Shown here piece after piece: positions 1,230 to 16,187 of a DNA stretch of 32,941 nucleotides. The position numbers were made by a program, and so were the translations under genes. The stretch lies in the IMG/VR virus record IMGVR_UViG_3300025133_000387, positions 1-32,941 of that record. One strand, written 5' to 3'. The stretch is from a virus. The notes under the pieces were generated by a model, which was not told the DNA's origin, did not search any database, and saw nothing but the letters and a program-made list of their open reading frames with translations. The first letter of the stretch is position 1; each line of letters begins with the position of its first letter.

Positions 1230-3617
1230 TTATGCAAAATAGTATTGCGACTCTAGGACATCCTCAATGTTCAATCCGCCAACGTAGGGGATCTCTGGTA
1301 ATGTTATTCCTATCGGCAGTAGTACCGAAATTTGTTTAGAGAAATCTTCCAATAAATTTTTCTTGAAATGTTCAACGGTCGCGGTCTTGAGACAGGTGTT
1401 AAGTATTCCTGAGTGAGCTGCGGTGGTGGCATACGAATCATGCACCATTGAGAATTGATCTACACCATTAAGAGCTGCTAGGTTCACAGTACGCATCATA
1501 AGGGAAGCATCGAGACTGTGTACGAAGTTTGGACAAATTCCATTGATATTTTTTCTGGCTGAGTTTTCGCCACGACCTCGCTGTAATCTATGTCTTCTTA
1601 TCTTCCCACCTATAGAAGTCTTTACTTCATACTTGGCTTGTTTCTCATAGAGTTGCTTCACCAAGAAGCCAGAAGGTACTGACCACATTGGAGTTACATT
1701 ATTATCCATGCAGATCCTAGCGACAGCCCTGAGCCAATCCATACCCATCCTTGCGGATGTCACAGAGTCACCAATAGAGTCCCAGATGAGGTCACTGAGG
1801 AAGATACAGGGTCTGAAGACTTCCTTGCCAAAGGGGTTGTCTCTGCGTTTCCTGAAGACTTCCTCCTTAAACCACTCAACTGTGTAGTCCTTGCAGGATT
1901 GCTTCGTTGAGCCATAGGGAAGCACCATAGTCTGTCTCTTGGTGGTCTTCCTGGTGATGCCAAACTCTACCCACTTCTGGGCAAAGGGATGGTCAGAGAG
2001 TTGAAGTTTCTCTATGACTGTATTTGCAACAATCTGGTAGAGGTCTTGAGGTGTATCACTGGGAGTTACATTGGTATAATAGGCAGCTTCAGGGTCTCTG
2101 AGTAACATGGCGTATATCTGGAGACCTTGGTTACTTGCATCTTGTGCAATGGGCAGGCTTGAGACATACCCATAGCCCTGCTCAAAGAACTCACCCATCT
2201 CCATTGCTGCTGCTAGGAACTGCCAGGGTTTATCTGCGGTATTCCATTGGATGTACTCAAGCGGATCTTGATGTATCTTCCTGAACATCTCCTCGTTGCT
2301 CCATGCCCACTCAAGTCGTTCTTGGATAGGTTTCTTATCGAGACCCCATGTGTTAGCTGCTTGAAACGCTAACCAGTTGGCATCGTCCTGAGTTTCTATA
2401 GGTGCTCCCTTGGAAAACCTCAGTAATCCCTTGGCCCAATCTGGCCCTTGGGGTTGTAGGTATTGAGGAACAGGATATGTTCGTGCTCTAAAGTCTAATT
2501 GTTGGGGATAGTGGAACTCCTCATCAGAAAACTTATTAGCAAGATATAAAACCTTAGCAAGTTGTAGTCTCTTAGACCTATCCTGAAGGTTCATCCTGTG
2601 TGTCTGGCTGGCTTGTCTACGCCACTGCTTCTGCGCTGGCTCGTTGGTGTCCCAATCTTCAGGTCTTGGAGGTAACTCATGCTCAGTGTTTGAAGGTAAG
2701 TCCCCCATAGCACTGTTGTTCTCATAGGAATACTGCATGGTCAGCAGGATCTCGTTATTAACTTCCCACCCTGTATCTTGTAGATGCCCTATTGCCTTGA
2801 ATACAGCAGGCATAGATATCTCATTGAGGTCTTGGAGATACCCAGCATCATAGGATTTAACTAGGGGTCTACGTCTAAGTTCTTCTGCGTGATACCCCCC
2901 TATGTAGATAGATTGCCAAGGCATTGGTTTGACCACCATCGGCATAAAGACAGGCCTAAGTATCTCATGGATAGCGTGGGCTTCTTTCAACCATAGCATG
3001 AGGTCATCGGTTGCCTGCACTGTGGTGGTAGCCCTACCAAACATATTGGTGAAGGTCTCTATATCTATTAGCCCAGTAGCTTCCCTCATTAACTCAATGA
3101 GAACGATACCTACTGCACAGGTGTCCTTGGTTTTCCACCTTGGGAGAATGATACCTGCTGCCTTAGCGGTCTTATGGATGTACCTACGCTTACTGACGTA
3201 GCCACCGTTGTTATTAACAGTAGAGAATAAGGTTGCCCATAGGTCAGGTTCTTCTTCTTGTATCTTGCGGAATCTATACTCATCCTCTAGGTACTGACCT
3301 ATACGGATAGCAATAGCTGTTAAAGTTCTACGCTGAGAGATACCATCGAGTACCGTCCGAGCTGTTAAAGCAGCCATGAGGTCTGTAGGTAACATATAGA
3401 AGTAAGGGAGGACTCGATGCTTACGTCCTGGGCCTGTCTCAGAGTACACAATCCAGTCCTTAATGCTGGCTTCGAGTAACTCTATGGATTCACCGAGTAA
3501 CCTCTTGGCTACAGGACTATAGGTTTCTACCTCGGCTTCTCTGGTTCTTGCCAGTTTACTATGATACCTCTCCTTACCGAGTTCAATCATTTCCTTATCT
3601 AGTTCACTTTGTCGCAT
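1230..3617 (-). CDS. T7-like single-subunit DNA-directed RNA polymerase
   Basis: The 795-residue enzyme transcribes the middle and late phage genes from phage promoters. Landmarks match T7 gp1: catalytic Asp near residue 493 in AQDASNQGLQIYAMLLRD (T7 D537 region), TKRQTMVLPYGS with Lys about 560 and Tyr about 568 (T7 K631 and Y639, same spacing of 8), and the second catalytic Asp about 727 in SMVHDSYAT (T7 D812). The C-terminus ends in the typical aromatic-Phe-Ala (YYFA, compare DFAFA in T7). I chose the ATG at 3617 because AAGGAG lies 5 bases ahead; a TTG 21 bases upstream is less likely. It follows the integrase gene, as in integrase-bearing marine podoviruses. Promoter specificity should differ from T7. 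Confidence 0.97.
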   Translation of the reverse strand: MRQSELDKEMIELGKERYHSKLARTREAEVETYSPVAKRLLGESIELLEASIKDWIVYSETGPGRKHRVLPYFYMLPTDLMAALTARTVLDGISQRRTLTAIAIRIGQYLEDEYRFRKIQEEEPDLWATLFSTVNNNGGYVSKRRYIHKTAKAAGIILPRWKTKDTCAVGIVLIELMREATGLIDIETFTNMFGRATTTVQATDDLMLWLKEAHAIHEILRPVFMPMVVKPMPWQSIYIGGYHAEELRRRPLVKSYDAGYLQDLNEISMPAVFKAIGHLQDTGWEVNNEILLTMQYSYENNSAMGDLPSNTEHELPPRPEDWDTNEPAQKQWRRQASQTHRMNLQDRSKRLQLAKVLYLANKFSDEEFHYPQQLDFRARTYPVPQYLQPQGPDWAKGLLRFSKGAPIETQDDANWLAFQAANTWGLDKKPIQERLEWAWSNEEMFRKIHQDPLEYIQWNTADKPWQFLAAAMEMGEFFEQGYGYVSSLPIAQDASNQGLQIYAMLLRDPEAAYYTNVTPSDTPQDLYQIVANTVIEKLQLSDHPFAQKWVEFGITRKTTKRQTMVLPYGSTKQSCKDYTVEWFKEEVFRKRRDNPFGKEVFRPCIFLSDLIWDSIGDSVTSARMGMDWLRAVARICMDNNVTPMWSVPSGFLVKQLYEKQAKYEVKTSIGGKIRRHRLQRGRGENSARKNINGICPNFVHSLDASLMMRTVNLAALNGVDQFSMVHDSYATTAAHSGILNTCLKTATVEHFKKNLLEDFSKQISVLLPIGITLPEIPYVGGLNIEDVLESQYYFA

Positions 3618-3855
3618 CCATGCTCCTTTACACCACAAGGTATCGCCACATTCTATGGAATACCTTTAATTTTTGCGGGTGTGGATACGGGAATAAGTAA
3701 GATTAAGTTGAGTGTCGGTGAATAGTCATCCACTGGTGTATCAATGAATCAGTAGAGCGACTATCCACAATACCACTGATTAGAGAAAATAAACCTAATA
3801 GAATCAAACACTTAACATTAACACATATTCCTGTAAACACCTTAAACACCACCAG
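3618..3855. promoter_or_regulatory. Intergenic region between integrase and RNA polymerase; possible attP or control region
   Basis: This is 238 bases with no supportable gene. Around 3722-3790 there are short interlocking inverted elements: GAATAGTC is answered by GACTATCC about 35 bases on, and GAATCAGTAG by CCACTGATTAG. Such arrays next to an integrase gene are compatible with integrase core and arm sites, or with regulatory sites for the polymerase gene. I see no recognisable tRNA 3' end, the usual attachment target for this group, so the att reading is only a guess. The region is AT-rich. Confidence 0.25.
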
Positions 3856-4890
3856 TTACGCCACAGTATTCTCCTGTAGAACATCGGTATTGGATCGTCT
3901 ACTTGCAAGTTTCTTTATCACATCCTCTAAGTCATTAGGGGCTAAGTGAGTGTATCTCTTAGTCATGGCTAAGGACTTATGACCTGCAAGTTGCTGCACC
4001 ATAAATAAATTAGTGTTCTCTTGGACTAAGTTTGTTATGAAGGTATGTCTACAAGCATGGAGGCACTCTTGAGTATCAGTCCACCCTAGTTGTTTCTTCA
4101 CTCTGTCCCATCGACTCTTAATCTGCGTATAACTCACCCACCTGAATGGGCCACCAGATATCTTAGAAAAGTATTCCATGATGCTCTGGACTTCAGGTGT
4201 CATAGGGATAGACCTAGCAGAGAAGTTCTTGGTCTTATCAAGGACTATTAAGTTACCCTGAATGTTCTCCCACTCAAGACTGAGGAGTTCCCCAATACGC
4301 ATACCTGTATCCAAGAGTACCCTGACTATCATTCCATAGTCCTCTAGGTCTAACTCATGGAAGGTCTTAATAATATCTTGCTGCTCATCATCGGTGTACC
4401 ACCTGATACGTTCTTGAGGTTCTTTCAGGTAGGTGATCTTGGGGAGCTTAGAGATAATCTCAAGTTCCAGAGCTGTCCTAAGCATTCGACTAAGAGCTGC
4501 AAGTTTTCTATTGACAGTTGCAGGTGAGTTACCGATCGACTTAAAGTCAGCCATCATCTCATCTATGGTAAACTTATCTATCGCATGGATATCCATAGAT
4601 CCACCGATGGACTCGACTACCTTCATAGCGTTAATCCATGTCTTACTCTCAGATCTCATGCCAGCCCAGTGATGCTTATAGGTATAGTCGGCTAACTCTT
4701 GGAGAGTTCTAGGTCTACTCTTGGTGCTCGATTGAGTACCCATCTCAGGTAACTTATCAGAGAGTAGGTCAGCTTTAGATTGTGCCTCCCATATCTCAGC
4801 TTCTTTAAGAGACTTGAATGATCTCCTGTAGCGTTCCTTGTGATAGTGGATAGTGGCTTCGTAAGATGTTCCTCGTTGTGTTATTGGCAT
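3856..4890 (-). CDS. int: Tyrosine recombinase / phage integrase
   Basis: The 344-residue protein has the full catalytic set of tyrosine recombinases: R198 (DTGMRIGELLSLEW), a Lys in the TKNFSARSIPM beta-turn, H278 and R281 (HACRHTF), H304 (LAGHKS) and nucleophile Y313 (KRYTHL). An N-terminal AP2/arm-type domain (residues 1-50) is followed by a SAM-like core-binding domain (about 60-150) and the catalytic domain. It should integrate the phage genome at a host attachment site through a 3'-phosphotyrosyl intermediate. It lies directly downstream of the MarR-like regulator (11-base gap) and upstream of the RNA polymerase gene. The catalytic residues are intact, so nothing indicates inactivation. 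Confidence 0.96.
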   Translation of the reverse strand: MPITQRGTSYEATIHYHKERYRRSFKSLKEAEIWEAQSKADLLSDKLPEMGTQSSTKSRPRTLQELADYTYKHHWAGMRSESKTWINAMKVVESIGGSMDIHAIDKFTIDEMMADFKSIGNSPATVNRKLAALSRMLRTALELEIISKLPKITYLKEPQERIRWYTDDEQQDIIKTFHELDLEDYGMIVRVLLDTGMRIGELLSLEWENIQGNLIVLDKTKNFSARSIPMTPEVQSIMEYFSKISGGPFRWVSYTQIKSRWDRVKKQLGWTDTQECLHACRHTFITNLVQENTNLFMVQQLAGHKSLAMTKRYTHLAPNDLEDVIKKLASRRSNTDVLQENTVA

Positions 4891-4901
4891 TACTGCATCC
4901 T

Positions 4902-5258
4902 TTATAAAGTTTGAATAAAACGTGTACCTTTGGGTGTAAGTTTGACTAACTTTACCCTTCTGTTCATGGGATCTTCGTAAGAATCAACCAGTCCATGACC
5001 TGATTGACCTTTCCTGTGAATCTTACCCAGCATCGCTACGTTGCGACTAACACTACTCTGTGCCGTCCCTGTCTTTATCCCTATGTCCCTCATTGTTATC
5101 GGTTCTGGGTCTGCTAATGCCACGACTAAAAGTGTAGAGATTGCTTGTGCCTGTATCTCTGGGTCTATCGTCCTGAAGGTTTCCACCTGCCTGAATAGCA
5201 TCCCTAAGTTTGTTAAGGGTGGATTGTGGGGTGTAGATAATAGAGAAGCGGAAGGCAT
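4902..5258 (-). CDS. MarR-like winged-helix transcriptional regulator
   Basis: The 118-residue protein has a winged helix-turn-helix in its second half: EPITMRDIGIKTGTAQSSVSR forms the helix-turn-helix, and the segment RRVKLVKLTPKGTRFIQ forms the wing and following helix, with the LTPKG signature typical of MarR proteins. A short helical N-terminal half probably dimerises. Its gene sits just before integrase, so a role in the lysis-lysogeny choice or in control of integrase and RNA polymerase is a reasonable inference. A near-perfect palindrome overlapping a -35-like box lies 54 bases upstream, suggesting autoregulation. It is unlike CI/Cro repressors. Confidence 0.8.
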   Translation of the reverse strand: MPSASLLSTPHNPPLTNLGMLFRQVETFRTIDPEIQAQAISTLLVVALADPEPITMRDIGIKTGTAQSSVSRNVAMLGKIHRKGQSGHGLVDSYEDPMNRRVKLVKLTPKGTRFIQTL

Positions 5259-5290
5259 ATATATAATACTCCTGTTGGTTACATCCGAGG

Positions 5291-5324
5291 AAACAATCTA
5301 CTACTGGATGGGACTTGTCAAGTC
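5291..5324 (-). promoter_or_regulatory. Candidate promoter with operator palindrome upstream of the regulator gene
   Basis: On the minus strand, GACTTGACAAGTC (5312-5324) is a palindrome with 6-base arms around one central base, and it contains an exact TTGACA -35 box (5316-5321). A weak -10 (TAGATT or GATTGT) follows at 15-17 bases. The overlap of operator and -35 is a typical repression geometry, and the next gene encodes a MarR-like protein. The -10 is poor, so the promoter strength is uncertain. Confidence 0.4.
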
Positions 5325-5393
5325 TTTCAAACCAAAGCTGGCCTAAGTATGGCACTTTAAGTAACAACGAGATGCTCCTGAAGGGTAATTATT

Positions 5394-5458
5394 AAGGACT
5401 AAAAAAAAATAAAAAAAAGAGTTAGAGGGAGTCCTTGACTAAGATCAAGAATCAATCA
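5394..5458 (-). terminator. Possible terminator / inverted-repeat region after the early small-gene block
   Basis: On the minus strand a hairpin CTTGA-TCTTAG-TCAAG is followed 14 bases later by two long T tracts (8 and 10 bases, 5401-5418). A second inverted pair, AAGGACT (5394-5400) and AGTCCTT (5430-5436), encloses the T tracts. The T-richness and position after the last early small gene suggest transcription termination or attenuation before the regulator-integrase-polymerase genes. The hairpin is weak and set back from the T tract. Confidence 0.35.
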
Positions 5459-5464
5459 AGAGAA

Positions 5465-5659
5465 TCAGGCAGAACGCCAAGACTCTGTGCGTGGATCAGG
5501 TGTCTCTGGATTACCTACGGATTCATTGTACTTATCGAAGTGGTATTCTATGTCAGCTTCAAGGTCGACTAAATCTGATAAGCACTTGGCTAACTGCGCT
5601 TTGAACATTCGTACGTCTGAAAGTATCTCTTGTTTTAATTTGGTTTCTTGGGTGTTCAT
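5465..5659 (-). CDS. Small early protein, unknown (MNTQETKLK leader)
   Basis: A 64-residue acidic protein, largely predicted helical with coiled-coil-like spacing in LAKCLSDLVDLEADIEYHF. I do not recognise the family. It is the last gene of the early small-gene block. Its first residues MNTQETKLKQ are nearly the same as those of the gene at 6040-6231 (MNTQETKLNN) and like those of 6450-6668 (MNTQQEQLK), although the rest differs, so the 5' end looks like a reused cassette. A GAAGGAAAC ribosome site precedes the ATG. No T7 counterpart is evident. Confidence 0.7.
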   Translation of the reverse strand: MNTQETKLKQEILSDVRMFKAQLAKCLSDLVDLEADIEYHFDKYNESVGNPETPDPRTESWRSA

Positions 5660-5677
5660 TTGGTTGTTTCCTTCTTG

Positions 5678-5974
5678 TTAAAAGTTGCGAGCATTTTGCT
5701 GATACGCCTTGCGTATCTCATCTGCTCGTTTAAGAGATTCTAGCTTCATCTTGGCGCCATCTTCAGTGTGGAATCCAGCGATTACCCCATACCAATTAGG
5801 CACATTAGACACACACTCGCACTCGCCAAGTACCTGAAATGGGAATATTTCCGCCAAGTTGTCGTCATAGTCCCACTCAGGGTCATCAAACACCTTGTAA
5901 CCATTTAAGTTGTCGAAAGTATCCTCGTTATATTTGACTATTGCGTATGATATATAAACTTTTTCGGTGTTCAT
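5678..5974 (-). CDS. Small early protein, unknown, 98 residues
   Basis: The product is acidic in its first half (FDDPEWDYDDNLAEIF) and has a basic helical end (KLESLKRADEIRKAYQQ). It has the look of a small alpha/beta protein, but no known motif is visible. The ATG follows the shared leader GGAAACCCAACA, and it begins MNTEKVY, again close to the MNTQ starts of neighbouring genes. It overlaps by 4 bases the stop of a short decayed coding remnant (5971-6039). Proteins in this position in T7-like phages usually act on the host early in infection, but nothing here shows a function. Confidence 0.75.
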   Translation of the reverse strand: MNTEKVYISYAIVKYNEDTFDNLNGYKVFDDPEWDYDDNLAEIFPFQVLGECECVSNVPNWYGVIAGFHTEDGAKMKLESLKRADEIRKAYQQNARNF

Positions 5975-6039
5975 TGTTGGGTTTCCTTCTGTAATTCATT
6001 GGGTATGTACCACATACCATCAATGGCGGAGTACGCTTG
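5971..6039 (-). pseudogene. Remnant of a duplicated small early gene (3' end only)
   Basis: Directly after the stop of the 63-residue gene, and in the same frame, 22 further codons read QAYSAIDGMWYIPNELQ followed by KETQQ and a TGA. IDGMWYIPNELQ is a clear relative of FDGFWYIPTDLQ at the end of the preceding gene, and the DNA is also similar (GGTACATACCCAATGAATTACAGAA against GGTACATCCCCACTGACTTACAGAA, about 22 of 25). No good start codon serves it alone. It is best read as the tail of a duplicated paralogue whose front was lost, or a C-terminal domain cut off by a new stop. Its stop overlaps the next ATG. Confidence 0.6.
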
Positions 6040-6231
6040 TTATGTGTTGGGAATTAGGTTCTGTAAGTCAGTGGGGATGTACCAAAAACCATCGAAGGGT
6101 TCATCCTCACCTTCTGCATAGATGTCTATGACTACTCCCCCATCCTCATTCTTGACGACTACCCTGCCACCTTCCTTGATGGATATGTAGGCATACTCTT
6201 GGTTGTTTAGTTTTGTTTCTTGGGTGTTCAT
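6040..6231 (-). CDS. Small early protein, unknown, 63 residues
   Basis: An acidic, beta-rich product with alternating hydrophobic segments (YAYISIKEGGRVVVKN, GVVIDIYAEG) and an aromatic end FDGFWYIPTDLQ. The family is not recognised. It starts with MNTQETKL, shared with the gene at 5465-5659. Its ATG overlaps the stop of the preceding gene by 4 bases (ATGA), so the two are likely translationally coupled. A truncated copy of its last third follows immediately downstream. Confidence 0.72.
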   Translation of the reverse strand: MNTQETKLNNQEYAYISIKEGGRVVVKNEDGGVVIDIYAEGEDEPFDGFWYIPTDLQNLIPNT

Positions 6232-6437
6232 TGTTTTAGTTCCTCGATAATCCCGAAGGCCTTTACAAGTAGGTTCACAAGATAGTCATAGTCCTCTTGA
6301 CTAATGTTCTTGATCTTACAATCGGTAGCCCAACTCTTGACTAAGTTAGCAAGAGGTTCTTCGAGTTCGATGTGCTGGTCTAACTCTGAGAGTTTTACGG
6401 TAGATGCTTCTAGTTTTTTAAGTAAGTTGTTGTTCAT
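6228..6437 (-). CDS. Small early protein, unknown, 69 residues
   Basis: A largely helical acidic protein (LLKKLEASTVKLSELDQHI, then DYDYLVNLLVKAFGIIEELKQ). No recognised motif, no membrane segment. The ATG has the usual leader AAGGAACACCAACA. Its last codons (GAA CTA AAA CAA TGA) also form the leader of the next gene, whose ATG overlaps this stop by 4 bases. Confidence 0.72.
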   Translation of the reverse strand: MNNNLLKKLEASTVKLSELDQHIELEEPLANLVKSWATDCKIKNISQEDYDYLVNLLVKAFGIIEELKQ

Positions 6438-6449
6438 TGTTGGTGTTCC

Positions 6450-6668
6450 TTATGGCTTCGCAAATTTTAAGTGTTCTAATAGTTCGATACAGGATTCATG
6501 ACTAACGCCATCATCGCCCCACGCACAATCATCGTCACATCCCATCATCCACTGTTCAAAGGTGTTAATGAGAATAGATATCTGTGGTGCTGTAAGGTGG
6601 ACGAAACACGCATCACCACGAATAACGTCATGTACTGCATCTTTTAGTTGTTCTTGTTGGGTGTTCAT
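6450..6668 (-). CDS. Small early protein, unknown, 72 residues, Cys/Asp-rich patch
   Basis: Begins MNTQQEQLKDAVHDVI, similar to the other MNTQ starts, then a helical region LTAPQISILINTFEQWM and a CDDDCAWGDDGVSHESC patch with three cysteines and many acidic residues that could bind metal. Function unknown. It starts inside the stop of the preceding gene (ATGA overlap) behind an AAGGAGGATCAACA leader, the strongest ribosome site in the block. Confidence 0.72.
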   Translation of the reverse strand: MNTQQEQLKDAVHDVIRGDACFVHLTAPQISILINTFEQWMMGCDDDCAWGDDGVSHESCIELLEHLKFAKP

Positions 6669-6874
6669 TGTTGATCCTCCTTCTTGGTGACTAATCTCCA
6701 GCCACCACCTTTTGACTTTGTTTCGTACATATTATTGTGAAAGTCCCATCCCTGTTGGTAACTAAACTTGCCATCTCCATTGTGGGTAGTTTTCCATCTG
6801 GTCGCTGTGACTAAAATTAGATCAACAGTTCCCTTTGGTGTTCCGCTTCCTGTTCGTAGTGTTATTGTTTTCAT
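6665..6874 (-). CDS. Small early protein, unknown, 69 residues
   Basis: A basic, beta-rich protein (MKTITLRTGSGTPKGTVDLILVTATRW) with several aromatic residues and a lysine-rich end GGGWRLVTKKEDQQ. No family recognised. The C-terminal EDQQ and TGA are encoded by the next gene's leader GAGGATCAACAATGA. It starts within the stop of the 59-residue gene upstream. It appears intact and has a good ribosome site (GAGGATACACA). Confidence 0.72.
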   Translation of the reverse strand: MKTITLRTGSGTPKGTVDLILVTATRWKTTHNGDGKFSYQQGWDFHNNMYETKSKGGGWRLVTKKEDQQ

Positions 6875-7050
6875 TGTGTATCCTCTGTTTTATGCGAGTC
6901 AGACATAACGACTAACTCTAGTTTCTTAGTTGCATCATTCTCTACGATGTCCAGATTTATATGACCCAAAGACTCGTTGGTAGTGTCATCTAGGATATCA
7001 ATAGTTAGACCGAAATCGTTTGCTAAAATATCTTGCGTTGTAATAATCAT
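6871..7050 (-). CDS. Small early protein, unknown, 59 residues
   Basis: A short acidic product starting MIITTQDILANDFGLTIDIL and ending HKTEDTQ. It is easy to miss because of size, but both ends fit the block: the ATG lies behind GGAAACCCAACA and overlaps the previous stop by 4 bases, and its TGA overlaps the next ATG by 4 bases. Alternating hydrophobic residues suggest beta strands. No motif is recognised. Confidence 0.7.
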   Translation of the reverse strand: MIITTQDILANDFGLTIDILDDTTNESLGHINLDIVENDATKKLELVVMSDSHKTEDTQ

Positions 7051-7574
7051 TGTTGGGTTTCCTTTTTTGTTATTCCATCCATGTATTCAAGTTCACCGTT
7101 ACGGAATCCGCCGCTCACGCCGCCATCTTCTGGGCTACACCATAATCCTGTTTCCGAATCCTTTTCAAACTCATCAAGTTCAATCAAAGAATAGACAGTT
7201 GCCAAGGCAAATCGCTTCGCCTCTTCAAGATCAACAAACTCCCCGCAACGCTCTCGCTTGTCTTGATGTTCCCACTCCCCGATAACAATTTTTGTCAAAA
7301 CATAGCAAGTGATTGCTTTGTGATGCGTGGGTATGGTTGGGATAAACTCCGCACCAACTCCACCAATCCATCTGGCAACATTGCCGCAGTCATCGTGCCA
7401 AAAATCCCATACGATTTTATTGTAAGCATTTTTCATAACCAATTCGCCTTCAACCCAAAACTCGTTCACCGTTGACCTGTATTTTCTTACCCACAATTTT
7501 GATACATCAAACTTCTTTCCAAGTTTTGCTTGGAGTTCAATCAATGTTGTTTTTGTTTTTTCAAACTTGTTCAT
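7047..7574 (-). CDS. Early protein, unknown, 175 residues
   Basis: The largest product of the early block. I take the ATG at 7574 (MNKFEKTKTTLIELQ) because it lies behind the shared GAGGATACCCAACA leader and overlaps the preceding stop by 4 bases; an in-frame extension 41 codons upstream lies inside the neighbour's coding sequence. The protein is rich in Trp and charged residues (WVEGELVMKNAYNKIVWDFWHDDCGNVARWIGG), and ends KKETQQ, the residues encoded by the next leader. It looks like a soluble alpha/beta protein. No known family is recognised. Confidence 0.75.
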   Translation of the reverse strand: MNKFEKTKTTLIELQAKLGKKFDVSKLWVRKYRSTVNEFWVEGELVMKNAYNKIVWDFWHDDCGNVARWIGGVGAEFIPTIPTHHKAITCYVLTKIVIGEWEHQDKRERCGEFVDLEEAKRFALATVYSLIELDEFEKDSETGLWCSPEDGGVSGGFRNGELEYMDGITKKETQQ

Positions 7575-7903
7575 TGTTGGGTATCCTCTGTGTTGAAAGT
7601 TGCTGAATAAAAAGTTGCTACGGTGTGGACTAAAAAGAATATCGGTGCGCCAATGGTTGCGACTAGAATAATTGCTAGTTTGCCTGGGGTATTGCATCGG
7701 TCGAATAGTGGTTCATCATCGGGGCTATTTCGTTCTAGTAATAGTGGGTCAAGAATTTCTGCTCGCCTCTCGTTGGCTTCTTCAATACTAATTTCGCCAT
7801 GTGCTTCTAACTCATCTATTTTGTCTATTGATTCTTGGAGTTTTGGGTCTTCATAAATACCACTATCAATTTGATCGAATAGTGGTTGTTCTTGTGGTTT
7901 CAT
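7571..7903 (-). CDS. Small early membrane protein, unknown
   Basis: A 110-residue protein with a charged helical N-terminal domain (SIDKIDELEAHGEISIEEANERR) and one strong hydrophobic stretch near residues 80-103 (KLAIILVATIGAPIFFLVHTVATF), likely a single membrane span with a short tail. I prefer the ATG at 7903, with AAGG 9 bases before it; an ATG at 7912 is the alternative. The protein could act on the host envelope early in infection or take part in superinfection exclusion, but no motif shows this. Confidence 0.7.
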   Translation of the reverse strand: MKPQEQPLFDQIDSGIYEDPKLQESIDKIDELEAHGEISIEEANERRAEILDPLLLERNSPDDEPLFDRCNTPGKLAIILVATIGAPIFFLVHTVATFYSATFNTEDTQQ

Positions 7904-8232
7904 TGTTTGCATCCTTTATTGTTTGCGGTTTCACGTTCGCCCATTACACGCATCGCTTCGATATATTCTGGCAAATCCTCATTTCTAAGTAACTTTGCCC
8001 AATGCTCAACCAACTCAACAACCTTAACAAAGTCATCTAAATCACCGCTCATTATTGCGTTGGCAGTATCTTGCATATCTTGTTGTATTTGCATGATATG
8101 TCCACCATGCTCACCATAACATTGCGTGCAAGTCCATGATTCGGATTGGCACGTTCCCAGGTGTTGCGTAAGTACATCTGAAACCTCCCCACAGTATGTA
8201 CATCGGTTCTGGGCTGTAATTTCACTTTTCAT
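7900..8232 (-). CDS. Small early protein with zinc-ribbon-like cysteine pairs
   Basis: About 110 residues. The N-terminal third has CTYCGEV followed by HLGTC, then CTQCYGEHGGH: two CxxC pairs with added Cys and His, consistent with a structural zinc site. The rest is helical (DDFVKVVELVEHWAKLL, EYIEAMRVMGERE). Zinc proteins of this size in phages often bind nucleic acid or host polymerase, but the family is not recognised. The start at 8232 has the same AAGGATGCAAACA leader as the next gene; an ATG at 8241 is possible. Its last codons GCKQ overlap the next leader. Confidence 0.72.
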   Translation of the reverse strand: MKSEITAQNRCTYCGEVSDVLTQHLGTCQSESWTCTQCYGEHGGHIMQIQQDMQDTANAIMSGDLDDFVKVVELVEHWAKLLRNEDLPEYIEAMRVMGERETANNKGCKQ

Positions 8233-8326
8233 TGTTTGCATCCTTATATTGTTTGCGAGTTATCTGTTGCTTAATTCATTTTGAATCAGTTTTGCGTACT
8301 TAATTTTGGCGAGTAGTTCCACGATA

Positions 8327-8557
8327 CTATCCAAAGTTCAAGTGTTGCATGGCTTCATCAAACGCCTTGTCGTTCTGTTTGACACAATCAAGTCGGTTTA
8401 CTACTTGCATTGCAACTTCAACCTTTGTGCCAGTGAGTGTAATAGGTACTATCTGTGAATATTCACCCATGGTTTTATGGTACTTTTTAGCATCTTTCAG
8501 GTTGGCAAAAATCATTGTGTAGTCGTCTTCGCCATTTTCTACTTTATAAATTCTCAT
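8327..8557 (-). CDS. Small early protein, unknown, 76 residues
   Basis: A product with a mixed alpha/beta pattern starting MRIYKVENGEDDYTMIFANL and a helical end (KAFDEAMQHLNFG). The start of the sequence, with DAKKYHKTM, suggests a small ferredoxin-like or beta-alpha fold, but no family is recognised. It is the first solidly supported gene after the terminator and operator-like palindromes, so it probably leads the early transcript. The 94 bases between it and the next gene hold no convincing gene. Confidence 0.65.
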   Translation of the reverse strand: MRIYKVENGEDDYTMIFANLKDAKKYHKTMGEYSQIVPITLTGTKVEVAMQVVNRLDCVKQNDKAFDEAMQHLNFG

Positions 8558-8757
8558 GCTGGTTTCCTATTTATTCGGAGTTCCATTATTCGCACCGAGT
8601 TGTGCGGTTTACTTATTGTATCCTGTGGTACATACGATGTACCTGTGGACTGTTCTATCGGGAAGTGTACACCAAGTAGAGTAGTAAAAGTAGTCAATCT
8701 ACCGATTAATTTACAAGTATTTTCAATAGGTGTTGTAAGTGTAGTAGTACCAGGCAC
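8554..8757 (-). CDS. Doubtful 67-codon reading frame, GTG start
   Basis: This frame starts with GTG, lacks a clear ribosome site, and encodes a Thr/Pro-rich sequence (PGTTTLTTPIENTCKLIG) of unclear nature. In its favour, its TGA overlaps the next ATG by 4 bases, like others in the block. Against it, the same DNA holds two strong palindromes and lies just past a terminator, as expected for an early promoter-operator region. I think it is more likely regulatory than coding. Confidence 0.25.
   Translation of the reverse strand: MPGTTTLTTPIENTCKLIGRLTTFTTLLGVHFPIEQSTGTSYVPQDTISKPHNSVRIMELRINRKPA
8591..8643. promoter_or_regulatory. Operator-like palindromes in the early control region
   Basis: Two perfect inverted repeats stand close together: CGCAC-N6-GTGCG (8591-8606) and GGTACAT-ACG-ATGTACC (8627-8643, 7-base arms). 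The second is flanked by direct copies of CCTGTGG/CTGTGG. A TACAAT -10-like box lies on the minus strand next to it (about 8613-8620), although the matching -35 is poor. The arrangement, just upstream of the early small genes, fits repressor control of an early host-type promoter. Confidence 0.4.
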
Positions 8758-8766
8758 TTACAATCT

Positions 8767-8801
8767 TAAAAAAAGCAAATAAGCCCTCTAAAAAAGAGAG
8801 C
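8767..8801 (-). terminator. Rho-independent terminator (minus strand)
   Basis: On the minus strand GCTCTCT-TTTTT-AGAGGGC forms a 7-bp stem (one G-U pair), followed by TTATTTGC and a run of seven Ts. It lies after the 103-residue gene and ahead of the early genes, so it would end transcription that passes through the genome-end region. The loop on the opposite strand is A-rich, so it works best for leftward transcripts. Confidence 0.7.
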
Positions 8802-9005
8802 GTTAATATAGGCAAGATAGACCATCATCATACATATATATAGACAACATGAGATGCTGGTAGATTGATAGTCAGTTGGACGTTCAGTAAATTGCAGGGT
8901 GTATGGTGCTTTTGTGGTCCAGGGTGGTGGTATTCTTTTATTGTGGGGCGTTCGAGTGATAGGGTAAGGGGGGAATGCCAGCGACAAAACCTACGATATA
9001 CCCTG
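8802..9005. other. Non-coding stretch between terminator and the 103-residue gene
   Basis: 204 bases with no supported gene. Two overlapping open frames on the minus strand have no ribosome site and unlikely composition (Pro- and Ile-rich with odd Trp and Cys). Near 8941-8972 is a G-rich run (TTGTGGGGCG, then AGGGTAAGGGGGG). Confidence 0.4.
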
Positions 9006-9317
9006 TCAGATTTTTTCATTAAAATTTGACTTAGACAACCTTGAAACCCACCCAAGAACCTCTTCAGGATTCTCCATAGCAATCAACCCCAGGACATTCT
9101 CAAGAACCCTTATAGATCCTTCAGACACCTGAAGCCCATAGGTATCCACAATACACTCGATGATCTCATGCAACAGTGTAAGAGCCTCATGCTTGGGATC
9201 TAGTCCTTCCTGTAGCCATATACTTGGAGTTGGATAGGGATTGTATTGACCCCATATTGCCTCATCGAGTTTCTTGTGAACCACAGGGACATCCAGAGCA
9301 CCCACCTTGATATTCAT
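9006..9317 (-). CDS. Zincin-like small protein with HExxE motif
   Basis: The 103-residue product has TLLHEIIECIVDTYGL near its middle, followed by SEGSIRVLENVLGLIAMENPEEVL. An HE-hydrophobic-hydrophobic-E helix followed by a second acidic helix resembles small phage proteins related to ImmA/IrrE-type metallopeptidases, in which the usual HExxH is often HExxE. Peptidase activity is not established. A good AAGGAG ribosome site lies before the ATG. The gene stands alone between the repeat-rich genome-end region and a terminator, so it may be carried near the physical left end and expressed very early, or be the last late gene. Moderate confidence in the family, high that it is a gene. Confidence 0.72.
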   Translation of the reverse strand: MNIKVGALDVPVVHKKLDEAIWGQYNPYPTPSIWLQEGLDPKHEALTLLHEIIECIVDTYGLQVSEGSIRVLENVLGLIAMENPEEVLGWVSRLSKSNFNEKI

Positions 9318-9425
9318 AAGGACTCCTTAGTAGCTCTAGCAAACTGCGGTGTGTACAAGATCAGTAATAATCAATAGACGGGGCCAGTAGAGACATAGGT
9401 ACATCTGGGGTCTCCTTTGGGTATT

Positions 9426-9497
9426 CCTAATGCACTCTCTAGGAGCACCTAATGCACTCTCTAGGTAACCCTAAAGAAGCACCTAATGCACTCTCTA
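9426..9497. repeat. Three direct copies of CCTAATGCACTCTCTA
   Basis: Copies start at 9426, 9448 and 9482 (spacing 22 and 34). The first two share CCTAATGCACTCTCTAGG, and the second and third share an extended AGCACC start. A CCCTAAAG word lies between the second and third. They are similar in place to the short repeat arrays beside T7 terminal repeats. Confidence 0.85.
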
Positions 9498-9513
9498 AGT
9501 CCACCTAGAGATA

Positions 9514-9533
9514 ACCTTAAGTTAACTTAAGGT
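9514..9533. repeat. 20-bp perfect palindrome ACCTTAAGTTAACTTAAGGT
   Basis: The sequence equals its own reverse complement over 20 bases with no central spacer. It follows the direct-repeat array by 16 bases. Possible roles are a protein dimer site, such as for terminase or host factor, or an end-processing signal. No function is shown. Confidence 0.8.
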
Positions 9534-9735
9534 ATTCCTAAGTGTCTTTAAATAATACACTTATATTGTCTATTTAATTAGTTCTTGTGTATGTTTATCT
9601 TTAGATAACTTATGTCTTTATAGTTACCTTAGACACTTATAGATAACTTAGATTCCTAAGATTCTATAGATACCTAAGATAACTTATAGATAACCTAAAA
9701 GATATATCTCAACCAAGATTACTTAGATCCAGAAG

Positions 9736-9752
9736 CCCCCCCAAACCCCCCC
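9736..9752. repeat. Tandem C7 tracts (G7-TTT-G7 on the minus strand)
   Basis: CCCCCCC-AAA-CCCCCCC on the plus strand; on the minus strand each G7 could supply two G-triplets, enough in principle for an intramolecular G-quadruplex. G-rich words GGGGATCTGGGGG follow on the plus strand at about 9793-9805, so a hairpin with the C tracts is also possible. Confidence 0.6.
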
Positions 9753-9937
9753 AAAGACAACAGAGGAGGATGCAACCTATGTCTCTGCATTGGGGATCTG
9801 GGGGAACATTCAAAGATCTATGTATCCAGGTTATTACATTGTAACAAACCAGAAGCGATTGTGGGGGGAGGCTTTTATACCATCACTGCCCATAGCTCAA
9901 CCTGAGTTCCTTGAGTCCGTCAGCCAAGAGACCTTGT

Positions 9938-9963
9938 GTCTCTCATATACTTGTACTTTATTA
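9938..9963 (-). promoter_or_regulatory. Candidate phage RNA polymerase promoter (phiOR-like position)
   Basis: The minus strand reads TAATAAAG-T-ACAAGTATATGAGA-GAC. The T7 promoter has the same outline: TAATA, 8 bases, TATA, then a G/A-rich start region. A 21-base segment (9941-9961) matches 19 of 21 bases of another site at 31118-31138, with ACAAGTATATGAGA identical. Location beside the genome-end region is that of T7 phiOR. Confidence 0.45.
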
Positions 9964-10021
9964 CGCAGGCTCTAGGAGGCACTAGGAGGCTCTCTAAGAG
10001 ACTTTAGAGTTTAGGTGTACT

Positions 10022-10195
10022 CTAGGGGTCTAATAGTTTAAATGTTCCGTCAGAGGCTTCCTGCGCCTCTCTAGCCTTCAGCATACGAATGATGTAATCA
10101 GTCACCTGCTCAGTATTCAGTTCATCCAGTAAGAACTTCTCCCAGGCATCTATGAAGTCATCTACTGTTTCTTCTAGTGATTTTGGGTCAGCCAT
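10022..10195 (-). CDS. Small protein after the large terminase, 57 residues, unknown
   Basis: A highly acidic helical protein (MADPKSLEETVDDFIDAWEKF, ending DGTFKLLDP). Its ATG lies inside the last 22 bases of the large terminase gene in another frame, a typical phage overlap. No family is recognised. It is the last gene before the repeat-rich region. T7 places small genes 19.2-19.5 in the same area, but no similarity is visible. Confidence 0.68.
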   Translation of the reverse strand: MADPKSLEETVDDFIDAWEKFLLDELNTEQVTDYIIRMLKAREAQEASDGTFKLLDP

Positions 10196-11844
10196 GTGTC
10201 TTGACCCCTTCCTGTGTTTCCTATTGCATGATTCATGAACGTGTTGAGTTCTTGCGATAACTTGTCACGTTTGTGCGACATCATGGCATCATCTACATCT
10301 CTTGACATCTGGTCTACCCAGTATTGGACAGCCATCGCCAGGACATCTAAACGGTCATCATGTGCTAGAGACCCTTTGTCTCTTGTAAGTCTACTCATCT
10401 GGTAGAACAACTGATACTTCAGTGCCTTCTCAGGTGGTAGGTGTTTTGTGCTATTATAATCATCATGAATGATTTTTTCATCTACAATCAATTTGTGCCG
10501 ATTCATTACTGGCTCCAGGACATCCAAGATCCTCTTTTCTTTCTGGATACTATGGCGTACCTCAGAGATCGTGACCTTGTGGATCTTGGAGAGGATAGGT
10601 TGGAGGAGAGCTGTGAACATCCCGTCACCGAAGTTACTCTCAACGATGACCTCATTCACTGAGTGCTCCTTAGCCATTACAGCCAGTGCCTTCAGGGTGT
10701 CTTCATCATACCCACCAGGCAATCCTCCAGCAGCCACCACAAAGAGTTGCGAGTTAAGCATCTTCACGATGGCGTAAGCTGTTTCGTCTGCACCTCTACC
10801 AGAGGGGTCAATAGACATTACAGACCCCTGGTAATTCATGAACTCACCTGAAGTACCCATAGGCATATAGAATCTATCACCACCAAAACCTACACATGGT
10901 AAATCTTTATAGGCATACTCAGGGGTTCCTGCCCAGATGACCTTCTCAGGTGCTTGTTCTTTATCTAACCTCATGATTACAAGGTCAGAGAGTTTCAATG
11001 GGTATCTCTCAGCGTCACTCAAGGAAGTATCTAGCATGAACTGTAGAGCGAACCCTGAGCGTCCGTAGGAAGCCTCACGCTCCATTAGGTCGAACTCATT
11101 GAACCTCTTGGGGTCTATTGCTTTGGATGGCTCTAAGTCCATCTCAATGATCGCAGGAGCCAGCCTCTTGCCATACCCAGTGATTTGTTTCTCAGTGGGC
11201 ATACGGGCAGGCCAGATGCGTACATCATAACCACGATCAGGTAACTCATTGTAAAGTGATTGCTCAGTTTGGGGAGTCCCCAGATAGATGATGTGACCAT
11301 TGGGCTTTAGGACGGCATCGAACTCTTGGACTTGCATCGCAAGTTTATCACGCATCATCTGGGTGGCAGAGTTATTTAGGGACTCAACATCGTCAGCAAT
11401 AATTAAGTCTGCACGACTCCCCGTTATCTGAGAAGTAATACCTTTGGATGTGACCGATGGTGCATGGGATGCAGGTGCGGGTGCAACATCAAAGGCAATC
11501 TTAGAGTTACGTTGGTTATCTCCAGGTTTCAAGTGCTGTAGTATCTCCATCTCAGCAATAAGCCTGAGAGTGAAGGTACTAAAGTCATCTGCCCGTTGCT
11601 TACTAGCGGATACCACCAAGATATTCTTAGTAGGATCTAACAGTAATTGATGACAGACGAAGGCTGAAGTTACCCAAGACTTTCCAACCCCTCGAAACGC
11701 CATGACACAGCGTCTCTTAGGGCCACTTTGGATATAGTCTGCTATATCATATTGAACAGGAGTGGGATCAGGTAGACCGAGATGTTCCCACGCCATGTAC
11801 AGGAAGTTCCTGAAGTCATGTAAACGTGGGTCAATTTCAATCAT
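10174..11844 (-). CDS. terL: Terminase large subunit (T7 gp19-like)
   Basis: The 556-residue motor packages DNA into the prohead and cuts concatemers. ATPase motifs are Walker A FRGVGKS (50-56), Walker B LIIADDVE (147-154) and the coupling motif LGTPQTEQS (188-196). The C-terminal nuclease has acidic residues in MSIDPSGRGADE (D346), VESNFG (E402) and HDDRLD (D497). The length is close to T7 gp19 (586). Its ATG overlaps the small terminase stop by 4 bases. The catalytic residues appear intact. Confidence 0.97.
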   Translation of the reverse strand: MIEIDPRLHDFRNFLYMAWEHLGLPDPTPVQYDIADYIQSGPKRRCVMAFRGVGKSWVTSAFVCHQLLLDPTKNILVVSASKQRADDFSTFTLRLIAEMEILQHLKPGDNQRNSKIAFDVAPAPASHAPSVTSKGITSQITGSRADLIIADDVESLNNSATQMMRDKLAMQVQEFDAVLKPNGHIIYLGTPQTEQSLYNELPDRGYDVRIWPARMPTEKQITGYGKRLAPAIIEMDLEPSKAIDPKRFNEFDLMEREASYGRSGFALQFMLDTSLSDAERYPLKLSDLVIMRLDKEQAPEKVIWAGTPEYAYKDLPCVGFGGDRFYMPMGTSGEFMNYQGSVMSIDPSGRGADETAYAIVKMLNSQLFVVAAGGLPGGYDEDTLKALAVMAKEHSVNEVIVESNFGDGMFTALLQPILSKIHKVTISEVRHSIQKEKRILDVLEPVMNRHKLIVDEKIIHDDYNSTKHLPPEKALKYQLFYQMSRLTRDKGSLAHDDRLDVLAMAVQYWVDQMSRDVDDAMMSHKRDKLSQELNTFMNHAIGNTGRGQDTWLTQNH

Positions 11845-14675: not shown

Positions 14676-16187
14676 TTATCCGATTTCTATGGCATATAAG
14701 TGCCCAACATTGGGGCTGTAACGTATTGTTGAGTAGGTTCCTGTCACCGCATTTTGTAACGCTAAACCAAACTTCATAGCCACACCCGCTGTTCCCGATG
14801 TTGCTATATGTTGGAGGCAAGTATGTTGATATATGCGGTCTTGTGTACTCATATTTGCAAAGCCATTTGAACCATAGCGTAACTGTGTACCATCCATAGT
14901 TGCACCTAAAGTAGAAACCGTATGGTTTTGATATAAAAGCAAGTACGCAATCGCTGTGCCAACGTCAACCGAGTAACATTCTGTTCGTGCACCTGCTAAT
15001 AGCAGTATGTTGCTTCCTGTTTTCTTAGGTGTTATAGATATCTCTATATCCATAAACTCAGGTACATCAACTGATGAAATAGAATAGCCCCCTTCTGTGA
15101 ATCCTGTAGGAGTTGCCCCATCATGTTGCACTATCTGCCGTATACTCATTGCATCAACACCCGCATACTGCAAAGCACCTGTGAGTATGTTCATGTCTCC
15201 TGAAACACCACCACTTAAAGTAGTTGCTCCAGTGACTCCAAGTGTATCGCTTAAAGTAGTTGCTCCAGTGACTCCAAGAGTATCGCTTAAGGTGGTAGCT
15301 CCAGTGACTCCAAGAGTACCTGTAGTAGACAGGTTGCCATCCTTATCAACGCTGGCTTTCACAGCGTCTGCACTATCAGTCCAGTTCTGTAAGTTTGCGG
15401 TTTGACTTGCGAGACCTTTTACAGTTACCCCAACAGTGCTTGTTGAATCTGGTTGTATGGGTTGTGCAAGGATATCTCTAGCAACACCAAAGTTTCTCAC
15501 AGTAATGTTATTAGTTCCACTTGCAGGAGCCGACCCGAAGGTAAGAGTAGTGGCAGATATCGTAAAGTCAGTTGTAGGTTTCTGCACAACACCATCAATA
15601 TCTACAACATACATATCAACATCTGTTGAAGCGGGGTCGGGTGAACTTAGTGTGAAATCTGTTTCAACAGTATCACCACTGAATGACCACTTTTGAGGGA
15701 CACTGATGGCATCATTATATAAGGATAATCCATCTACATATTGTTTAGTAACAGCATCAAGTGCTGCTGTGGGAGTGCCTACATCTTTAATTCGGGTATC
15801 CTCAGCATCCCAGGTGTTATCTGCAAGATCCTTACTGAGAGCGTTGGTTGCTCCTGAGTCTTCAGCTTCCTGCGTGATATATAAGAGACCCAACACAGCA
15901 TTATCTAGGTCAGACTCAGTGAGCACTGAACCGTTGGCAAAGTCAGCAATCTGTGCTTGATAGTCAGCTTTAGTCTTAGGGGTGACTCTTTGTACTAGAA
16001 CCACAGTCCCACTACCAGGAGCTGACGTAAAGGTGACCTGGTTTGTACCAGTATCTATGGAGTATCCAGTAGATTGTAAGACACCATCTAGGTATATCTT
16101 AATGTGCTCACTAGATAGATAGTCAAATGTTATTGCGAAAGATGCTTGACCTGTAGAGGTGTATCTATCGTAGCTATAAATTGCCAT
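14676..16187 (-). CDS. Tail fibre protein (T7 gp17-like N-terminus)
   Basis: The 503-residue protein starts with the gp17 tail-attachment domain: YDRYTSTGQASFAITFDYL, YLDGVLQSTGYSID, VTFTSAPGSGTVVLVQR, ADFANGSVLTESDLDN and AVTKQYVDGL (residues about 1-160). A second beta domain follows (PQKWSFSGDTVETDFTL to DITVRNFGVARD). A shaft with three copies of the 12-residue repeat LGVTGATTLSDT (residues about 290-325) leads to a C-terminal receptor domain from IRQIV to AIEIG. It should form a trimer on the tail. The repeats are exact to within a few bases at DNA level and may vary in number. Confidence 0.9.
   Translation of the reverse strand: MAIYSYDRYTSTGQASFAITFDYLSSEHIKIYLDGVLQSTGYSIDTGTNQVTFTSAPGSGTVVLVQRVTPKTKADYQAQIADFANGSVLTESDLDNAVLGLLYITQEAEDSGATNALSKDLADNTWDAEDTRIKDVGTPTAALDAVTKQYVDGLSLYNDAISVPQKWSFSGDTVETDFTLSSPDPASTDVDMYVVDIDGVVQKPTTDFTISATTLTFGSAPASGTNNITVRNFGVARDILAQPIQPDSTSTVGVTVKGLASQTANLQNWTDSADAVKASVDKDGNLSTTGTLGVTGATTLSDTLGVTGATTLSDTLGVTGATTLSGGVSGDMNILTGALQYAGVDAMSIRQIVQHDGATPTGFTEGGYSISSVDVPEFMDIEISITPKKTGSNILLLAGARTECYSVDVGTAIAYLLLYQNHTVSTLGATMDGTQLRYGSNGFANMSTQDRIYQHTCLQHIATSGTAGVAMKFGLALQNAVTGTYSTIRYSPNVGHLYAIEIG
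15214..15317 (-). repeat. 36-bp tandem repeat inside the tail fibre gene
   Basis: Copies of the plus-strand word CTTAAAGTAGTTGCTCCAGT (third copy CTTAAGGTGGTAGCTCCAGT) start at 15214, 15250 and 15286, an exact 36-base period. They encode the fibre-shaft repeat LGVTGATTLSDT and keep the reading frame. Copy-number change would alter shaft length without a frameshift. Confidence 0.9.

Follow-up and report, generated by a model that had tools for sequence, protein, structure and literature searches.

The window, a stretch of 32,941 nucleotides from a marine bacterial virus (IMGVR_UViG_3300025133_000387), carries on its minus strand a run of 11 small early genes (8557-5465), named here by their start coordinates. 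All 11 begin with ATGA, compared with 9 of 26 genes elsewhere in the phage. Between 8232 and 5465, six of the nine junctions are 4-nt ATGA stop/start overlaps (7900-7903, 7571-7574, 7047-7050, 6871-6874, 6665-6668 and 6228-6231), in agreement with an earlier note on this DNA that had described most junctions in this way; at the remaining three, the genes are separated by 12, 65 and 18 nt.

A recurring leader some 16 nt long, AAGGAAACCCAACAATGA or a variant of it, stands at these starts, where it reads AAGGAAACCCAACA or GAGGATACCCAACA (Table 1). CCCAACAATGA is present in three exact copies, each on the minus strand and each at an early start; exact GGAAACCCAACAATGA stands at two starts and exact GAGGATACCCAACAATGA at one, while the other copies are shorter or altered. 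A second leader type, CGCAAACAATA(T)AAGGATGCAAACAATGAAA, lies upstream of genes 8232 and 7903. The statement in the earlier note that the same leader precedes the genes was right about a recurring, statistically strong element, but slightly generous given the shorter and altered copies. The repeat extends past the start, covering about 15 nt of the downstream gene (MNTQETKL...). The fossil or duplicated gene end at 5971..6039 aligns with the 3' end of gene 6231 at a local score of 59, the maximum among 1417 other segments being 31.

Table 1. Leader copies, junctions and small early genes of the window. Tails are the residues encoded up to the stop codon.
Feature	Position	Strand	Description
Leader of gene 8232, second type	8227..8260	minus	TCGCAAACAATATAAGGATGCAAACAATGAAA; direct repeat D6, exact over 19 nt with copy 7898-7916
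Dual-use junction 8232/7903	7898..7930	minus	CGCAAACAATAAAGGATGCAAACAATGAAA; tail TANNKGCKQ of gene 8232 and RBS/start of gene 7903
Dual-use junction 7903/7574	7571..7588	minus	GAGGATACCCAACAATGA; tail EDTQQ
Dual-use junction 7574/7050	7047..7064	minus	AAGGAAACCCAACAATGA; tail KETQQ; L037-L039 homology stops within
Dual-use junction 7050/6874	6871..6885	minus	GAGGATACACAATGA; tail EDTQ
Dual-use junction 6874/6668	6665..6680	minus	GGAGGATCAACAATGA; tail EDQQ
Non-overlapping copy upstream of gene 6437	6434..6451	minus	AAGGAACACCAACAATGA; 12-nt gap; TGA frame still KEHQQ
Dual-use junction 6437/6231	6228..6245	minus	GAGGAACTAAAACAATGA; tail ELKQ
Copy upstream of gene 5974	5971..5988	minus	AAGGAAACCCAACAATGA; now end of fossil tail (KETQQ)
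Degenerate copy upstream of gene 5659	5656..5673	minus	AAGGAAACAACCAAATGA; TGA frame KKETTK
Fossil or duplicated gene end	5971..6039	minus	QAYSAIDGMWYIPNELQKETQQ, then stop; second copy of gene 6231 3' end (DEPFDGFWYIPTDLQNLIPNT, then stop) plus leader
Gene 8232	7900..8232	minus	110 aa; between two copies of second leader type
Gene 7903	7571..7903	minus	110 aa
Gene 7574	7047..7574	minus	175 aa; unknown function; exchanged cassette
Gene 7050	6871..7050	minus	59 aa
Gene 6874	6665..6874	minus	69 aa
Gene 6668	6450..6668	minus	72 aa; N-terminus MNTQQEQLK
Gene 6437	6228..6437	minus	69 aa
Gene 6231	6040..6231	minus	63 aa; N-terminus MNTQETKLN, common to gene 5659
Gene 5974	5678..5974	minus	98 aa; N-terminus MNTEK
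Gene 5659	5465..5659	minus	64 aa; N-terminus MNTQETKLK

Pfam and PHROGs gave no confident family for 10 of the 11 small early proteins (gene 5659 lay outside the scan), and the protein of gene 7574-7047 matched neither collection. No Rfam family was found within 3600-10200. Scans for sigma-70-type promoters and stem-loops returned fewer matches than shuffled sequences, with no same-strand promoter/stem-loop pair at the junctions, and we rejected such an element there. Among the leader sequences that were read, no 17-bp inverted repeats were seen.

The leader repeat is far above chance. In the non-SD spacer (-8..-1), mean pairwise identity is 0.52 among the 11 early leaders, compared with 0.32 in the 26 other genes and 0.41 in composition shuffles (z = 5.0); over the codons at +4..+18 it is 0.47, compared with 0.29 in the other genes (z = 5.7). 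The same leader identity statistics found no such repeat in the phage's other genes, in its two distant relatives CRP-114 and HTVC109P, or in the lambda P-Q region.

One tentative account, which we consider unlikely, is that the leaders arose separately as a pure translational optimum, combining a host-specific Shine-Dalgarno (SD) site, an open A/C-rich spacer and ATGA, with cassette edges at starts reflecting only selection against broken genes. The early leaders are indeed A/C-rich (A 0.52, C 0.36), and their starts are more open than other starts (unpaired 0.70 versus 0.54, p = 0.0013). SD-containing ATGA overlaps are also common in prokaryotes, where they mediate reinitiation (PMC6728339), and AACAATG is present in unrelated phages as well. 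However, the identity of the spacer and of codons 2-6 exceeds that of same-composition shuffles, and repeats of 53 nt in the relative L088 or, in the window, of 19 nt exactly and 38-39 nt with lower identity, exceed any RBS need. Moreover, the close relative L002/L088, whose backbone is 72% identical in DNA, uses a different, mostly intergenic repeated leader with few overlaps, and its early genes are almost wholly different. The leader is thus not conserved across this lineage of temperate T7-like phages.

The clearest indication of gene movement comes from gene 7574-7047, which recurs at 92% and 86% DNA identity in phages (L037/L039) that have no further gene in common with this one over the stretches compared. 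Its homology ends a few bases from the ATG on one side and inside the downstream leader on the other. At the 5' side, 20-nt windows outside the gene have identities of 0.25-0.65 and those inside reach 1.00; at the 3' side, identity is 0.85 over the final 20 nt and drops to 0.25-0.35 immediately past the stop. Across the phages the gene is preceded by three different leaders, and has three different upstream and three different downstream neighbours, all unrelated. The leader behind it contains CCCAAC here, as do other window leaders, and AGCAC in L037-L039, as do their other leaders; copies therefore match better within than across genomes. These comparisons support cassette exchange of early genes, with gene 7574-7047 as the direct case.

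The leaders behind this gene in the two phages have 13 of 16 bases in common. We did not rely on the three substitutions alone as proof of a crossover, because a few substitutions are expected at 8-14% divergence. It is nevertheless notable that these substitutions match the local leader exactly.

Gene 7574-7047 is the one early gene of the window that could be traced to a second phage; the remaining early proteins used in searches gave no relatives. Its relatives were absent from GenBank phages and from bacterial and archaeal genome contigs, and genes 5974-5678 and 8232-7900 had no relatives in viral contigs or the phage collection. Scanning viral contigs for exact leader matches gave 31 contigs per scan, nearly all single-copy. 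When the window's early proteins were compared with these leader-matching contigs by tblastn, clear relatives of a small early gene turned up only where gene 7574 was present, so a lone 16-18 nt match is uninformative.

Repeated leaders and duplications are found in the other phages too. The L037-L039 phages have their own repeated leader, which encodes the tail KETAQ; in addition to the 53-nt leader repeats of L088, L039 carries a 223-nt duplication of leader plus gene. In a related phage family, 10 of 16 abrupt homology edges fall within 20 nt of a start, compared with 18.5% expected at random, in a count based on rough gene calls and on pooled comparisons that are not independent. Gene contents thus change at leader breakpoints, as the earlier note had asked of related phages, both around gene 7574-7047 and in this family. 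The edges bear out its picture of swappable cassettes, in which the leaders themselves may have served as sites of recombination.

The leaders might instead be true recombination hot spots, with microhomology kept for the phage annealing system and the block serving as a cassette-swapping platform, a reading we regard as doubtful. The hybrid leader behind gene 7574, the duplicated gene end with its leader and the exchange between unrelated phages all point this way, as do the Gp2.5-like annealing protein, exonuclease and RusA-like resolvase that the phage encodes. Against it, the leaders behind gene 7574 agree only partially between the two phages, and edges at starts in the related family also occur without a long leader repeat. 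Edges at starts are no proof that leaders attract recombination, because selection removes breakpoints inside genes; the leaders may drive recombination, or may merely mark joints that survive selection.

Because leader copies recur inside the 3' ends of upstream genes, six unrelated proteins share leader-coded ends: GCKQ, EDTQQ, KETQQ, EDTQ, EDQQ and ELKQ. This supports the dual use proposed in the earlier note, in which one module encodes the tail of one gene and the RBS and start of the next; ELKQ and GCKQ are additions to its list. Shared tails were likewise found elsewhere, leader-coded but in the form KETAQ, which ends three L037 proteins and two L039 proteins; two of these end in INEEQKETAQ and are otherwise unlike. 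All six window tails end in Q, and four consist of ET or ED plus Q-rich residues, as might be expected if they formed a functional tag on the protein, perhaps one for degradation or localisation, with the DNA repeat secondary. We rejected this very improbable reading because gene 7903 has an L088 homologue without the EDTQQ tail, ending in FYTATFKN; in addition, the homologue of gene 7574 ends in KETAQ, the leader sequence is kept before 6437 and 5659, where no tail is coded, and the similarity runs beyond the stop into the next gene. Every contig is metagenomic, but an assembly artefact or chance similarity is scarcely credible given the strong repeat statistics and the finding that contigs of different samples carry the common gene flanked by the leader type of their own genome.

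We favour, at a probability of roughly 0.6, a phage-specific translation-initiation module that fixes the upstream tails at most junctions, with one-gene cassettes gained, lost and duplicated at edges in or beside it. This reading builds on the observed repeat, dual coding, sharp-edged cassette, duplicated gene end and tail-less homologue, and the greater openness of the early starts also speaks for it. Against it count the different leader and few overlaps of the closest relative, and the tracing of a single window gene to another phage. The module would reach from roughly -16 to +18 relative to each early ATG and comprise the Shine-Dalgarno site, a spacer that is A/C-rich and unstructured, ATGA and the opening codons. 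At most junctions it fixes the last residues of the preceding protein because the ATGA overlap places it inside that gene's end, and termination-reinitiation probably couples translation across the overlaps. Small accessory genes would come, go and duplicate singly with edges in or beside the module, so that each newcomer would adopt the local leader and tail. The leader was probably copied within a genome, and recombination may have used leader homology; the encoded annealing protein, exonuclease and resolvase could perform it. A bolder version, possible but improbable in our judgement, is that the junction acts as a dual-coding adaptor retained for exchange. Such a sequence, read in each of the two overlapping genes and homogenised per genome, would allow short-homology annealing to splice in single-gene cassettes from unrelated phages, and each newcomer would acquire the C-terminal tag and the translation start of the recipient.

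The way in which phages exchange small genes one at a time while keeping operons intact is an old question, with one camp invoking random recombination followed by selection and the other recombination targeted by conserved boundary sequences. The joint described here occurs in repeated copies, both genes read it, it varies from one relative to another, and it lies at the edges of a gene common to unrelated phages; both views therefore become testable. A simple rule also follows: odd shared C-terminal residues (KETQQ, KETAQ) can be used to find such joints elsewhere and to correct gene starts and ends.

In the lambda P-Q region, leaders barely resemble each other. In the lambdoid nin region, as Clark et al. 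are said to have described for HK620 in 2001, ATGA-joined small genes swap singly and a conserved joint sequence was proposed to target recombination. The conservation there is reportedly between phages at one joint, whereas in the window it is between the joints of one genome.

The window shares with termination-reinitiation sites the 4-nt ATGA overlap and an SD inside the upstream gene, but such overlaps are general in prokaryotes and lack a repeated near-identical leader (PMC6728339). The 17-bp repeats of cluster O mycobacteriophages are likewise dispersed, with gene gain and loss flanked by copies; unlike the window leader, they are palindromic and have no tie to translation starts (PMC4351075).

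The nearest known kinds are the PeSL cassettes of T4-type phages and the Start-Associated Sequences (SAS) of cluster K mycobacteriophages, from which the window element differs chiefly in its dual coding. PeSLs, as described in PMC4503421 (citing Arbiol 2010 and Comeau 2014), are mobile regulatory cassettes that lie in intergenic DNA and combine an early promoter with a stem-loop. They resemble the window element as short repeated regulatory sequences at gene junctions of a hyperplastic early region, tied to gene shuffling, which in our data has its edges at the element (gene 7574-7047 and the related family). The window element, in contrast, is translational and coding, and the sigma-70-type scan found no promoter/stem-loop at its joints. 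SASs are 13 bp long (GGGATAGGAGCCC), conserved cluster-wide and located mostly before genes with an upstream gap of >50 bp; an extended form (ESAS) adds 17-bp inverted repeats at only about half of them (PMC3203893). Like the window leader, they are short, asymmetric SD-containing repeats in one orientation, just upstream of the starts, mostly ATG, of small non-structural genes of different families, with conserved bases reaching beyond SD pairing (PMC3203893). The window leaders read AAGGAAACCCAACA or GAGGATACCCAACA and not 5'-GGGATAGGAGCCC; unlike SASs, they lie in 4-nt overlaps at six of nine junctions, encode the upstream tail, enter the first codons of the next gene and differ between close relatives.

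All 11 early genes, named here by their start coordinates, begin with ATGA, and six of the nine junctions from gene 8232 to gene 5659 are ATGA overlaps. The leader, the repeated ribosome-binding and start segment ahead of these genes, occurs mainly as GAGGATACCCAACA and AAGGAAACCCAACA, with shorter or altered forms (GAGGATACACA, GGAGGATCAACA, AAGGAACACCAACA, GAGGAACTAAAACA, and AAGGAAACAACCAA). CCCAACAATGA is found in three exact copies, each at an early start, while a second leader type, CGCAAACAATA(T)AAGGATGCAAACA, precedes genes 8232 and 7903. Read in the upstream frame, the leaders encode EDTQQ, KETQQ, EDTQ, EDQQ, ELKQ, and GCKQ, C-terminal tails that arise because the leaders sit in overlaps. 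In eight leaders the AGGA core is positioned 13 or 10 bases 5' of the ATG, so leader length shifts by threes and the upstream frame is kept, including at three junctions where the overlap has been lost.

The repeated unit spans approximately -16 to +18, N-terminal codons included, since similarity was found in the spacer and first codons, with no real signal at -30 to -17 upstream of early starts. The SD-to-start spacer had a mean pairwise identity of 0.52 in the eleven early leaders; shuffling these sequences at constant composition gave 0.41 (z = 5.0), and 26 further genes of the window gave 0.32. The first codons (+4 to +18) gave 0.47 against 0.39 in such shuffles (z = 5.7) and 0.29 in other genes. 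Genes 6231 and 5659 share the N-terminus MNTQETKL, and gene 6668 has MNTQQEQL. Early starts also show less structure than other window starts. Spacer similarity was not seen in the early genes of two distant relatives, Roseobacter phage CRP-114 (z = 1.6) and Pelagibacter phage HTVC109P (z = 0.4); in the lambda P-Q region it was weak (z = 2.6), and neither the SD segment nor the initial codons showed any.

Gene 7574-7047, which encodes 175 aa and matches no known family, is also present in the IMG/VR contigs L037, L038, and L039 (92%, 86%, and 85% DNA identity), the last two being nearly one phage. Apart from a 19-nt hairpin, nothing else is common to these contigs and the window in the stretches compared, and no other gene is. 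Against L037, in 20-nt steps, identity rises from 0.25 before the gene start to 1.00 after it, and falls from 0.85 in the final 20 nt to 0.35 past the stop. Its three contexts have three different upstream and three different downstream neighbors. The leader 5' of the gene is GAGGATACCCAACA in the window, AAAAGGAAAATGAAA in L037, and AAGGAAACAGCACA in L039; the 3' leader opens with a common AAAAAAGGAAAC and then turns to a local form, CCCAACAATGA in the window (with the C of GGAAAC) and AGCACAATGA in L037/L039. Because AAGGAAACAGCACAATGA is reused at junctions (three in L037, two in L039), unlike proteins of these phages share the ending KETAQ, extended in two cases to INEEQKETAQ. The earlier note had proposed checking whether gene contents change with breakpoints at the leaders; for this gene the check has a positive outcome.

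Further traces of probable gain, loss, and duplication were observed. The final part of gene 6231 is present a second time, in frame, in the interval before gene 5974 (IDGMWYIPNELQKETQQ in this copy versus FDGFWYIPTDLQNLIPNT, each before a stop; score 59, best among 1417 other segments 31). This homology extends into the leader, and gene 6231's own end resembles a leader that has decayed (TTCCCAACACATAA). Two second-type leader copies, 19 nt identical, flank gene 8232. In L039, a 223-nt block of leader and gene start is duplicated (94%; 6353-6575 and 7518-7740). Each copy stands before a different gene end, so that two proteins share the N-terminus MTTNET..KLNATLKRETEKAFLMDCETD. Comparison of early regions across the L037/L039 family and the window gave 16 abrupt homology edges, of which 10 lie no more than 20 nt from a called start (random positions, 18.5%), a count that is only supportive of cassette edges at starts, as the comparisons are non-independent and the gene calls rough. 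One-gene cassettes would be gained and lost with their edges at the module. The repeated leader may also raise the exchange rate, via the phage annealing protein and exonuclease; edges in these positions would equally be expected from selection against breakpoints within genes.

The close relative L002/L088 (two ends of one contig; backbone DNA identity to the window 72%) differs in almost all early genes, with homologs found only of gene 9317 and, short, of gene 7903. The latter ends in FYTATFKN without EDTQQ, so this tail results from the junction, and we infer that the gene 7903 family does not need it. Leaders in this relative are another repeat, ACAATCTATAGGAGGATAATAAAATGACTA..., mostly intergenic; leaders are therefore alike within a genome and unlike between close relatives. 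This pattern fits within-genome copying better than one host-ribosome optimum, with the proviso that the two hosts may differ. Each phage most likely has its own repeated translation-initiation module. By analogy with SD-bearing overlaps elsewhere, which couple translation by termination-reinitiation (PMC6728339), the module in an ATGA overlap probably does the same.

The window coding strand carries 15 copies of the hexamer TTAGTC, every one of them at 7633-4029 (minus strand); the other strand has seven scattered copies. Coding copies number 13, against 1.5 in synonymous shuffles (maximum 7 of 1000). In L002/L088 the early region (L088 2994-5445, L002 1-3956) contains 23, and the rest of the same strand contains none in the stretches compared. 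Within integrase and polymerase, 0 of 11 positions are common to both phages, so sites turn over while density is kept. The hexamer was not found in the early regions of CRP-114 and HTVC109P. It resembles a polar signal of the early region (stoperator-like, antitermination, or another kind). The hairpin CCGCACAACTCGGTGCGA, which lies 5' of the first early gene, has an identical 19-nt counterpart in L037, an unrelated phage. It recurs in the L037 family, where copies mostly follow a second strong hairpin of variable stem (z -3.6 to -6.1) and the hairpins stand 5' of early gene starts. It has no Rfam match and is possibly an undescribed structured leader RNA.

The window is a single linear virus contig with its main genes on the minus strand. 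Its order of small genes, MarR-type regulator, integrase, and RNA polymerase matches temperate marine Autographiviridae, including CRP-114 and HTVC109P. The RNA polymerase has at most 36% identity over its length among the phage-collection matches listed, and that collection gave no DNA match to the early block. Approximately 5 kb of L002 (5608-10715), flanked by the blocks that match window 1 and window 32936, is absent from the window, so some of the replication genes are probably missing from its contig. The 22-nt repeat lies between terminase and early genes, where T7-like phages have terminal repeats.

Coordinates of genes, repeats, and hairpin copies
Feature	Contig	Position	Strand
Small early genes	window	8557-5465	minus
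Transcriptional regulator	window	5258-4902	minus
Integrase	window	4890-3856	minus
T7-type RNA polymerase	window	3638-1230	minus
Gp2.5-like annealing protein, RusA-like resolvase	window	among main genes	minus
Exonuclease, structural genes	window	opposite side	
Large terminase	window	11844-10174	
22-nt tandem repeat CCTAATGCACTCTCTAGGAACA	window	9426-9474	
36-nt tandem repeat in structural gene 16187-14676 (GVTGATTLSDTL repeats)	window	15214-15318	
36-nt tandem repeat in large structural gene 19968-16198	window	19052-19138	
Hairpin CCGCACAACTCGGTGCGA	window	8588-8606	minus
Hairpin copy	L037	6808	
Hairpin copy	L039	6343	
Hairpin copy	L092	6422	
Hairpin copy	L097	15553	
Hairpin copies	L106	9471/9874/10232	

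Boundary sequences in lambdoid phages were reportedly described by Clark et al. in 2001, a paper listed in PMC3945230. In cluster K mycobacteriophages, SASs are repeats that contain an RBS and lie 5' of starts, with a suggested role in translation initiation (PMC3203893). PeSLs of T4-type phages, as cited in PMC4503421, are promoter and stem-loop repeats linked to gene shuffling, and cluster O phages show gene gain or loss at repeats (PMC4351075). The window junctions work like all four and belong to none. SASs mostly precede genes with wide upstream gaps (PMC3203893), whereas the window leaders lie mostly in ATGA overlaps. What is new in the window is this overlap, and hence the encoded C-terminal tails, together with a repeat that continues into the following gene and leaders that differ from one close relative to another.
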